A stretch of DNA of 56,494 nt from a virus: positions 1 to 56,494 of the IMG/VR virus record IMGVR_UViG_3300005613_000078; one strand, given 5' to 3'. The notes under the pieces were generated by a model. It was not told where the DNA came from and did no database searches. It was given only the letters and a program-made list of their open reading frames with translations. This document shows positions 43,418-46,261 of the stretch, piece by piece (position 1 is the stretch's first letter; each line of letters starts with the position of its first letter). The position numbers were made by a program, and so were the translations under genes.

Positions 43418-44299
43418 ATGCCAAGTGCTGATATTTACTTAGGGAATCCGAACCTTAAAAAGGCAAATACTCAAATTGAGTTTACACAAGAACAGATTGA
43501 AGAGTACATTAAATGCAAAAGCGATCCTGTTTATTTTGCTAAAAACTATGTTCAAATCGTAACGTTGGATCATGGTCTTCAACCGTTTAAGATGTATGAC
43601 TTCCAAGAGAAGTTAGTTCGTAATTTTCACGAAAATAGATTTAATATTTGTAAGATGCCACGTCAGACTGGCAAGTCTACGACTGTAGTATCTTTTCTAC
43701 TTCATTATGCTGTTTTTAATGATAGTGTTAATATTGGTATTCTAGCAAACAAGGCATCTACTGCAAGGGAACTTTTAAGTAGATTGCAAATTGCTTATGA
43801 GAATTTGCCAAGATGGATGCAGCAGGGTATTCTATCTTGGAATAAAGGTTCTTTGGAGTTAGAAAATGGCAGTAAGATATTGGCAGCTTCTACGTCTGCA
43901 AGTGCTGTCCGAGGCATGTCGTTTAACATTCTATTCCTCGACGAGTTTGCCTTCGTTCCAAACCATATTGCGGATGCCTTCTTTGCATCTGTTTATCCTA
44001 CTATTACTTCTGGTAAATCAACGAAAGTAATTATTGTTTCTACTCCACACGGTATGAATCACTTCTACCGTATGTGGACTGATGCAGAGAAGAGCAGAAA
44101 TGAATACGTCCCCACTGATGTTCACTGGTCTGAAGTTCCAGGTAGAGACGATAAGTGGAAACAACAAACTATTAAAAATACTTCTGAACAGCAATTTAAA
44201 ATTGAGTTTGAGTGTGTATCTGGAGACACAAACATTGAAATAGAATGTGAGGATGGTGTGGAAACTACTGCAATCAAGGATTTATACGATAGAATGTAA
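43418..44299 (+). CDS. 17: Large terminase gp17, N-terminal part fused to split N-intein
   Basis: A 293-aa ORF. Residues 1-265 are the ATPase part of TerL: M80-P-R-Q-T-G-K-S-T is Walker A, I-L-F-L-D-E-F-A-F (171-179) is Walker B and catalytic Glu, and V-S-T-P-H-G (207-212) is the coupling motif. Residue 266 is the Cys that opens a 28-residue N-intein (CVSGDTNIEIECEDG and on to DLYDRM), followed by TAA. The terminase sequence resumes in the ORF at 44904 with CEFLGS, so the native junction reads KIEFE/CEFLGS. A strong AGGAG precedes the ATG by six bases. It requires trans-splicing with the 44904 product to make an active packaging motor. Confidence 0.93.
   Translation: MPSADIYLGNPNLKKANTQIEFTQEQIEEYIKCKSDPVYFAKNYVQIVTLDHGLQPFKMYDFQEKLVRNFHENRFNICKMPRQTGKSTTVVSFLLHYAVFNDSVNIGILANKASTARELLSRLQIAYENLPRWMQQGILSWNKGSLELENGSKILAASTSASAVRGMSFNILFLDEFAFVPNHIADAFFASVYPTITSGKSTKVIIVSTPHGMNHFYRMWTDAEKSRNEYVPTDVHWSEVPGRDDKWKQQTIKNTSEQQFKIEFECVSGDTNIEIECEDGVETTAIKDLYDRM
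44213..44296 (+). other. Split N-intein (28 aa), AceL-TerL-like
   Basis: The coding segment runs from Cys1 to the stop of the first terminase ORF. Block A is visible as C-V-S-G-D-T. The opening CVxGDT and ending DLYxR match, from memory, the N-half of the AceL-TerL intein, found in terminase genes of Ace Lake metagenomes and about 25 aa long. Typical split N-inteins are near 100 aa, so this is the atypical early split between blocks A and B. Confidence 0.9.
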
Positions 44300-44310
44300 G
44301 TTCATAGGAT

Positions 44311-44318
44311 TATAAATA
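44311..44318 (+). promoter_or_regulatory. Late promoter, TATAAATA, inside the fractured terminase locus
   Basis: An exact T4 late promoter box 12 bases after the stop of the N-terminal terminase ORF and 23 bases before the endonuclease ATG. It could drive the endonuclease and the C-intein/terminase ORF independently of the upstream half. Confidence 0.75.
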
Positions 44319-44341
44319 TTAATAGTAGTTGAGATAATATA

Positions 44342-44911
44342 ATGTATACCATTTATGCACTCGTGGATAATGATGGAGTAGTGAAGTATGTGGGTCAAAC
44401 TACACAGGTTGATGTTCGTAAAAGAGACCATAAAAACAAAAAACCACCCCACAACTTTGTCATTATCAAAGAGAATCTTTCTGCAGAAGATGCCAAGCAG
44501 TTTGAGATTGATACTATTGCCAAATACAACACATATAAAAATGGTTGGAATATGAGTTCAGGTGGAGAAGGATTTGATGGTTACAGAAGAACTAATATTG
44601 GTGGAGTAAAGAAAGGTAATATTCCCTGGAATAAAGGTAAGAGTGGTTGTTTCAGTGAAGAAACTATCAGCAAAATGAGTAATGTCCGTAAAGGCAAAAT
44701 ACATTCATCAAAACTAACTCCCGAAAAAGTCCGATTTATAAGGAATCTATATAATACAAAACCAAGACTAAAAGGTGTTGGTGATATTCAACCCAATGGT
44801 AAAGTTCTTCCTTATGAGAGAGCATTTTCAAAGAACTACGCAGAAGAGTTTGGCATAACCCCCAGCAACTTACACAAAATCATTCTATATAAATCTTGGA
44901 CTAATGTATAA
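44342..44911 (+). CDS. GIY-YIG homing endonuclease with NUMOD3 motifs
   Basis: A 189-aa protein. The GIY-YIG nuclease domain (residues 1-80) has I4-Y5-A6 and Y16-V17-G18 in place of GIY and YIG, R26 as candidate catalytic Arg, E55 in A-K-Q-F-E-I-D-T-I as metal-binding Glu, and N70 in G-W-N-M-S-S-G-G. NUMOD3 DNA-binding motifs follow (IPWNKGK, SEETISKMSNVRKGK), then two helical segments (LTPEKVRFIRNLY and FGITPSNLHKIILYKSW) of homing-enzyme type. It lies between the two halves of the split-intein terminase, so its likely target is an uninterrupted gene 17. It overlaps the next ORF by eight bases (ATGTATAA). Confidence 0.9.
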   Translation: MYTIYALVDNDGVVKYVGQTTQVDVRKRDHKNKKPPHNFVIIKENLSAEDAKQFEIDTIAKYNTYKNGWNMSSGGEGFDGYRRTNIGGVKKGNIPWNKGKSGCFSEETISKMSNVRKGKIHSSKLTPEKVRFIRNLYNTKPRLKGVGDIQPNGKVLPYERAFSKNYAEEFGITPSNLHKIILYKSWTNV

Positions 44912-45212
44912 ACTGAACTCGTCCATTAAGGTAAAAACACCAAGAGGATTTAAAAAATTTGCAGGTATTCAGAAGGTAAGAAAATCAGTTTATCAATGGA
45001 TTATCTTTGGAGATGATAGTGAAATAAAGTGTTCTTTAGACCATTCCTTTGGTGAAGAGCAAGTTAAAGCTCACACAATAAAAACAGGAGATTTATTACA
45101 ACATAAAGAAGTAGTTTATAGTGAGATTGTTGAGGAACCTATTGATCTATATGACTTATTAGAAGTAGAGGATGGAAACTTATATAATACTAATGGTGTT
45201 GTATCTCATAAC
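44904..45212 (+). other. Split C-intein (103 aa), AceL-TerL-like
   Basis: It carries intein block B as S44-L-D-H47 (Ser replacing the usual Thr of TxxH), a block F region (D-L-Y-D-L-L-E-V, then Y-N-T-N-G), and block G as V-V-S-H102-N103 followed by Cys+1. The penultimate His, terminal Asn and +1 Cys needed for splicing are all present. No endonuclease domain is inside the intein itself. The sequence (KTPRGFKKFAGIQKV; DLYDLLEVED; TNGVVSHN) resembles AceL-TerL C-intein as I remember it. Confidence 0.92.
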
Positions 45213-46067
45213 TGCGAGTTCTTAGGATCAGTTGATACACTGATTGCTCCTAGTAAATTAAAAGCACTTGTATATGAAAATCCTATTCAAAGAAATGCTG
45301 GACTAGATGTATATGAGGCAGTAAAAAGTGGGCATGATTATGTCTGCACCGTTGATGTAGCAAGAGGTGTTGGAGGAGATTACTCCGCCTTTACAGTTGT
45401 TGATATTACAGAGTTTCCACATAAACTTGTAGCAAAATATAGAGATAACACTATTAAACCGATGCTGTTTCCTAGCGTCATTTATGAAGTGTGTAAAAGT
45501 TATAATGAAGCATTTATACTATGTGAGGTAAATGATGTTGGAGATCAAGTTGCTAGTATCTTACAATATGATCTTGAATATCAAAATCTACTGATGTGCT
45601 CGATGCGCGGAAGAGCAGGACAGGTTGTTGGACAAGGATTTTCTGGTAGTAAGACACAGTTAGGTGTTAAAATGTCTAAGACCGTGAAGAAAGTTGGTTC
45701 ACTTAACTTAAAAACCATGATTGAGGAAAATAAATTTATTTTCTGTGATTATGAAGTTATTTCAGAACTGACTACCTTCGTATCTAAGCACAATTCATTT
45801 GAAGCAGAAGAGGGTTGTAATGATGACCTGGCAATGTGTCTTGTGATTTATGCTTGGTTGGTAGCACAAGATTACTTTAAGGAGTTGACCGATCAAGATG
45901 TTAGAAAGCGACTATACGAAGAACAGAAAAATCAAATTGAACAAGACATGGCACCCTTCGGTTTTATTGTCGATGGACTCGATGATAATTCTTTTGTGGA
46001 TGATGAAGGAGACAGATGGCATACCGACGAGTATGGAGACATGTCTTATATGTGGGACTTTCAATAA
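44904..46067 (+). CDS. 17: Split C-intein fused to large terminase gp17, C-terminal part
   Basis: A 387-aa ORF. Residues 1-103 are the C-intein, and residues 104-387 are the rest of TerL starting with CEFLGSVDTLIAPSK. The nuclease domain shows its acidic triad: D151 in Y-V-C-T-V-D-V-A-R-G, E205 in I-L-C-E-V-N-D-V-G, and D304/D305 in G-C-N-D-D-L-A-M. These match the RuvC-like nuclease of T4 gp17. The gp17 C-terminal tail (M-A-P-F-G-F-I-V-D-G) is intact. With the N-part (265 residues) the spliced product is 549 aa, near the cyanophage norm. The ATG lies inside the end of the endonuclease gene, so the two are probably translationally coupled. Confidence 0.93.
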   Translation: MYKLNSSIKVKTPRGFKKFAGIQKVRKSVYQWIIFGDDSEIKCSLDHSFGEEQVKAHTIKTGDLLQHKEVVYSEIVEEPIDLYDLLEVEDGNLYNTNGVVSHNCEFLGSVDTLIAPSKLKALVYENPIQRNAGLDVYEAVKSGHDYVCTVDVARGVGGDYSAFTVVDITEFPHKLVAKYRDNTIKPMLFPSVIYEVCKSYNEAFILCEVNDVGDQVASILQYDLEYQNLLMCSMRGRAGQVVGQGFSGSKTQLGVKMSKTVKKVGSLNLKTMIEENKFIFCDYEVISELTTFVSKHNSFEAEEGCNDDLAMCLVIYAWLVAQDYFKELTDQDVRKRLYEEQKNQIEQDMAPFGFIVDGLDDNSFVDDEGDRWHTDEYGDMSYMWDFQ

Positions 46068-46261
46068 TGGATCTAGACGATCAGTTTAATCTGAATCATC
46101 TGTTTTTTAATACTAGAAGGTGTAGATCTTGTGGCAAAACAAAAAACTTGATCGAAGGATTTTATAGAACCAGAAAGGATAAAGGTCAAGTTCCTTCTTC
46201 ATATTCATATGAATGTAAGCGATGTACAATAGATAGAATTAAAAAAGGACGTGAAACTTAG
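46067..46261 (+). CDS. Small zinc-ribbon protein, 64 aa
   Basis: A 64-aa protein with C-R-S-C at about 19-22 and C-K-R-C near 50, a likely four-Cys zinc ribbon. The form R-R-C-R-S-C-G-K-T-K with FYRTRKDKGQ resembles the N-terminal ribbon of recombination endonuclease VII-like or HNH homing proteins. It has no nuclease part. Its ATG overlaps the TAA of gp17 (TAATG). A ribbon gene between gp17 and gp18 is, I believe, common in cyanophages, so it may be a packaging accessory protein and not a remnant. Its stop is in the loop of a hairpin. Confidence 0.65.
   Translation: MDLDDQFNLNHLFFNTRRCRSCGKTKNLIEGFYRTRKDKGQVPSSYSYECKRCTIDRIKKGRET

Follow-up and report, generated by a model that had tools for sequence, protein, structure and literature searches.

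How can a phage keep an essential packaging gene in two separate pieces, and what is the gene that lies between those pieces doing there? This question is raised by the IMG/VR virus record IMGVR_UViG_3300005613_000078, whose whole stretch of 56,494 nucleotides (56.5 kb) is referred to here as the window. The record encodes tail sheath, tail tube, portal, protease, scaffold and major head protein, which form a T4-like structural module, and the closest matches of its terminase large subunit (TerL) are found in Synechococcus and Prochlorococcus T4-like phages. The host of the element is a marine T4-like cyanophage, and its gene 17, which encodes TerL, is interrupted by an intein that is itself atypically split, with a GIY-YIG homing endonuclease gene (HEG) lying between the two intein halves. 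In our opinion it is highly probable that this insert is a mobile fractured-gene element, working in an essential phage gene in the way proposed below. What appears to be new in it is a copy of the homing site placed beside the promoter of the HEG.

Anatomy of the fractured terminase gene

Gene 17 consists of two open reading frames (ORFs), at 43418-44299 (293 aa) and 44904-46067 (387 aa), with the GIY-YIG ORF (44342-44911, 189 aa) between them, all on the plus strand. The first ORF begins with the N-extein of TerL (43418..44212, 265 aa), which holds the ATPase domain (Terminase_6N, 2.9e-22; phrog_5989/phrog_2, terminase large subunit), and its C-terminus is the N-terminal intein half (IntN), CVSGDTNIEIECEDGVETTAIKDLYDRM, of 28 aa plus a stop codon (44213..44299), recognized by its sequence, its match to 6DSL_A CatN and the alignment with its relatives. 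The second ORF opens with the C-terminal half (IntC, 44904..45212), of 103 aa and ending in VVSHN, and continues with the 284-aa C-extein (45213..46067), whose first residue is Cys+1 and which carries the nuclease domain (Terminase_6C, 3.2e-13). The residues for splicing are the Cys1 codon at 44213-44215, a block-B-like CSLDH, His-Asn at 45207-45212 and Cys+1 at 45213-45215, and the joined exteins give a protein of 265 + 284 = 549 aa. The interruption of TerL falls where the ATPase domain ends on its C-terminal side, with about 45 residues left before the match to the RNase-H-like domain. A first-pass annotation of this DNA had already given these coordinates, the two-ORF gene 17 and the free-standing GIY-YIG gene, all of which proved exact by sequence, ORFs and Pfam; the Cys1/Asn/Cys+1 set and the 549-aa joined TerL that it had listed are likewise borne out by the sequence. 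A sequencing or assembly error, or a gene 17 that is in fact continuous, was ruled out, since the halves are read in different frames and separated by a stop codon, and about 100 other contigs show the same arrangement.

The intein could be assigned from both of its halves. IntC matches the PDB entry 6DSL_B CatC with 1.3e-36 over 102 residues and gives a match to the NCBIfam model intein_Cterm above its cut-off, and IntN matches 6DSL_A CatN with an E-value of 0.025, for a query of only 28 aa. Judged by these matches, the intein is a member of the AceL-TerL/GOS-TerL/"Cat" family of atypically split TerL inteins, in agreement with the kinship to AceL-TerL proposed in the first-pass annotation. 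It shares with them the host gene, the short IntN, an IntC of about 103 aa and Cys+1, and its halves align to CatN and CatC; the difference lies in the sequence and in that GOS-TerL has Ser1 whereas the window has Cys1. AceL-TerL and GOS-TerL have been reported to trans-splice (PMC11766414), and the Cat intein of 6DSL is their consensus. The nucleophiles at positions 1 and +1, the block-B His and the terminal His-Asn are all present in the intein of the window. Since it belongs to this family, its splicing chemistry and its fractured layout, as well as split inteins in TerL, must be counted as already known. Dassa et al. 2009 reportedly described fractured genes in which a split intein makes the break and an endonuclease gene stands on its own between the two parts; the present locus resembles them in this layout but differs in having a packaging gene as its host, an enzyme of the GIY-YIG type and a homing-site copy at the promoter.

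Group I introns often house GIY-YIG genes, and phage terL transcripts that undergo splicing are known (PMC10448857), so that the insert might be taken for a group I intron, or part of one, and the halves would then be joined at the RNA level. We consider the probability of this to be negligible. The catalytic core of a group I intron was not found, as no Rfam family matched in the window, and this nature of the insert was therefore ruled out and RNA-level removal is very unlikely. Furthermore, each half of the intein has its counterpart in a split intein of solved structure, and IntC is kept as a protein, with a ratio of nonsynonymous to synonymous substitution rates (dN/dS) of no more than about 0.12 in comparisons with unsaturated dS.

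The gene between the halves (44342..44911) encodes a protein of 189 aa that contains a GIY-YIG domain (Pfam, 1.6e-5, above the cut-off) and matches phrog_314, homing endonuclease. The first-pass annotation had called it a GIY-YIG/NUMOD3 endonuclease; the GIY-YIG part stands, but the NUMOD3 match is weak and below the cut-off (E 0.017). Six residues, Tyr5, Tyr16, Gly18, Arg26, Glu55 and Asn70, are invariant across 20 aligned HEGs. In the AlphaFold model (mean predicted local distance difference test score, pLDDT, 79; predicted template modeling score, pTM, 0.49), the nearest structures were the GIY-YIG domains of UvrC and I-TevI, with weak E-values and high probability; a sequence search of the PDB with the HEG as query returned no match. 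The stop codon of the HEG and the start codon of IntC share the eight nucleotides ATGTATAA (44904..44911, plus strand). The overlap is of exactly 8 nt in most loci (69 of the 73 further loci in the set retrieved with the HEG), which suggests that the translation of IntC is coupled to that of the HEG.

Spread of the element among terminase genes

IMG/VR was searched with a profile of IntC, which gave 59 loci, and with the endonuclease, which gave 80 loci overlapping in part with the IntC set, 76 of them newly fetched. The order TerL-N/IntN/GIY-YIG/IntC/TerL-C was observed in most of the 59 IntC loci, and the same TerL context in all of the 76 newly fetched HEG loci (both sides were visible in 73, and three were cut by contig ends). 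Altogether, about 100 IMG/VR loci have the architecture of the window at the identical TerL site. The first-pass annotation had proposed looking in related phages for an uninterrupted gene 17 with the same insertion point, and such genes were found: in the 80 sampled, the junction was FE|CEFLGS without exception, with few variants at the DNA level. An occupied locus (L015) and an empty one (L129) have exteins 94% identical and differ by a clean insertion of 993 nt.

The clearest sign of mobility came from the comparison of the window with locus L002. The element, of about 1,000 nt, is 99.5% identical between them, whereas TerL is only 80% identical upstream and 75% downstream; outside the element, the first differences are met 18 nt from its 5' end and 5 nt from its 3' end. 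We read this pattern as a recent homing-like transfer. In addition, dS was 0.2-0.8 for the HEGs compared, against 1.65 to saturated for the flanking TerL-C. A vertical history shared by element and TerL was rejected by the approximately unbiased (AU) test, in which a single TerL clade for five close elements gave a p of 6e-7, with long branches as a caveat. The transfer pattern and the empty sites are together what homing would predict, and the "probably active homing unit" of the first-pass annotation has gained support from the near-identical element within diverged exteins, from the dS and selection values of the HEG, from the AU rejection and from the empty sites. We take the locus for a real mobile element, and very probably an active one.

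The HEG could instead be carried along as a passenger, inactive or domesticated, with the split intein retained only because its loss would break terL. Split inteins free of a HEG do exist (L044 and L046), and one HEG of the HEG-query set looks truncated. Nevertheless, the HEG is intact in nearly all loci and under purifying selection (dN/dS 0.10-0.24), its catalytic residues are invariant, and the window's own element was transferred recently, all of which makes a passenger improbable in our view.

A homing-site copy beside a late promoter

Between IntN and the HEG, at 44311-44318 of the plus strand, lies the T4 late promoter element TATAAATA. It is present in nearly all HEG-bearing relatives; L210 and L215 do not contain the exact string but have the site copy described next. 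The core ATAAATA occurs at 12 sites in the window, all of them on the plus strand and in a total below chance expectation (for example 23436, 37277, 40556, 49195, 51103 and 52363), and several of these sites are located 20-45 nt ahead of the starts of late or structural genes (portal, scaffold, baseplate). The 20 bp directly 5' of TATAAATA are AGAATGTAAGTTCATAGGAT (44291-44310, plus strand), a non-coding stretch that includes the IntN stop. When it was compared with the joined extein junction, TGAG|TGCGAGTTCTTAGGAT, 15 of 20 positions were equal, a value reached by no other 20-mer of the window apart from the sequence itself. Neither the late promoter motif, nor this homing-site copy, nor the 8-nt overlap appeared in the first-pass annotation.

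The likeness holds across the family. In the first set, the junction came out on top among about 1,160 positions for the site copy in 26 of 27 loci, and in the HEG-query set it did so for 46 of 47 distinct pairs; the lone failure in the latter, L171, is not valid because the contig ends inside the element and the true junction is absent. Among 22 distinct copies, a mean of 18.7 of 20 letters fell within the alphabet of natural empty sites, and none of 5,000 column permutations came near this value. A chance origin of the copy was rejected by these rank tests and permutations. The copy keeps a fixed register throughout the family, and its variable positions 6, 9, 10 and 12 are largely degenerate codon positions. 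At position 4, variation (G or A) is confined to the copies; this is the second letter of the codon that stops IntN, TGA or TAA, and in most loci it is therefore the copy itself that closes the IntN frame. Moreover, the copy is kept across HEGs with an identity of just 48-57%, in spacers that otherwise vary in length and sequence. What the copy lacks of the homing site is the portion upstream of -4, where an enzyme like I-TevI would cut.

The closest precedent for this layout is I-TevI of T4, which has a homing-site-like operator, with 15/20 identity, at its own late promoter; the enzyme binds operator and homing site equally well, cleaves the operator with an efficiency about 100-fold lower, and acts as its own repressor (PMC2988022). 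At the sequence level, a homing-site-like operator at a late promoter is what we find here too: the enzyme is of the GIY-YIG type, the promoter is late and the 20-bp site-like sequence scores 15/20 in both cases. I-TevI resides in the td group I intron, in contrast to the present enzyme, whose gene is housed by a split intein; the copy here is placed just upstream of TATAAATA. From this layout, together with the absence of the part upstream of -4, we infer an autorepression of the HEG through the upstream copy, which we regard as somewhat better supported than not. The wider proposal, in which a 20-bp copy of the target arrived with the HEG and became both the operator of an autorepressor at a late promoter and the stop codon that breaks the intein, we judge to be evenly balanced.

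Some points weigh against these proposals. A T4-style RNA hairpin over the HEG start and ribosome-binding site was not found (z-score 0.56, with 132 of 200 shuffles folding as well), and the likeness to I-TevI is therefore claimed at the promoter and not for regulation in all respects. The distant GIY-YIG relatives of Vibrio phage VP-1 and of L066 lack promoter and copy, the loci are related, so that the ranks of the site copy are not independent, and homing itself is deduced from sequence. The copy could be a relic and not an operator. Under this alternative the element would still be a mobile split intein, with the copy as a mere scar, left when the HEG entered at a sequence resembling its site by ectopic cleavage or by recombination. 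HEG flanks similar to homing sites were reportedly read as footprints of invasion in group I introns (Loizos 1994), and the copy spans the insertion point, forms the 5' border of the HEG cassette and brings the IntN frame to its stop. Its conservation in non-coding DNA while HEGs and spacer diverge, its fixed register against TATAAATA and the I-TevI precedent speak for an operator instead, and a scar without function appears to us a possible but clearly weaker explanation. Both origins are compatible, as an operator may also be the scar of HEG entry.

In the mechanism that we favor, that of a mobile split-intein element with an operator, TerL would be produced as two polypeptides, the 28-aa IntN would fold onto the 103-aa IntC, and trans-splicing via Cys1, the block-B His, His-Asn and Cys+1 would yield an unscarred terminase. 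The GIY-YIG enzyme would recognize the uninterrupted FE|CEFLGS site in rival phages, and the repair of the cut would copy the entire element of about 1 kb (IntN-HEG-IntC) into the site of the rival. The HEG would be transcribed from its own late promoter until binding of the enzyme at the 20-bp copy, which would also close the IntN frame, probably shuts transcription off; IntC translation would probably follow that of the HEG through their overlap. A literature search gave no description of a split-intein HEG whose promoter is accompanied by a copy of its homing site, Dassa et al. 2009 being outside that search. The abstract of the latter reportedly speaks of elements of gene control that arrive together with endonuclease genes, and the priority for the site copy is for this reason uncertain.

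Variants of the terminase intein and their meaning

Other forms were observed at the same TerL site. L067 (1255-3537) has a continuous, endonuclease-free mini-intein. The terL of Vibrio phage VP-1 (MH363700, L008:2321-5663), annotated merely as terminase, has a homologous GIY-YIG sequence (31%) and an IntC in a separate frame at the identical site; it differs in that the endonuclease is fused in frame to IntN, in that late promoter and site copy were not seen, and in a second, continuous mini-intein in the P-loop. L044 (3403-3809) and L046 (1351-1765) are split inteins without a HEG in which the site copy survives with its first bases, and in L046 what appear to be the last bases of the HEG survive too; this points to a HEG that was deleted there and not originally absent. 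In L058 (612-4703), L059 and L061, TerL is in three pieces, with one split intein in the P-loop and another, with Ser1 and Cys+1, at the site of the window. The two genes inserted there are different, one of 145 aa with a helix-turn-helix (HTH) and one of 384 aa for a DUF559/MTES_1575-like nuclease.

Further inteins were seen elsewhere in TerL. L029 (1018-2910) and L041 (275-2167) carry a TerL N-half with a continuous LAGLIDADG intein in the P-loop, that is, two kinds of intein per gene. A related IntC occupies another TerL site, with an LDEF motif, after an HNH/NUMOD3 gene in L065 (91-2276), and another is found at IIDE|C, with a further long continuous intein, in L064 (2856-6347). Directly after terL, the window has a small ORF (46067-46261, plus strand) that matches phrog_4723, endonuclease VII (1e-30); an endonuclease VII-like neighbor of terL is likewise annotated in S-SM2.

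Taken as stages, these forms make a life cycle readable at one site: empty, continuous (L067), with the HEG fused to IntN (VP-1), fractured with the HEG, fractured with the HEG lost (L044, L046) and as a three-piece terminase (L058). The variants enlarge the set of split inteins with a short IntN available for protein chemistry, and the element marks a recent exchange of DNA among wild cyanophages. The site copy makes testable how HEGs enter and split inteins, and how essential genes are spared from the harm of selfish genes. If our reading is true, a 20-bp copy with several roles would show how a HEG invades an intein, fractures it and then controls itself, and the element would be to split inteins what I-TevI is to group I introns.
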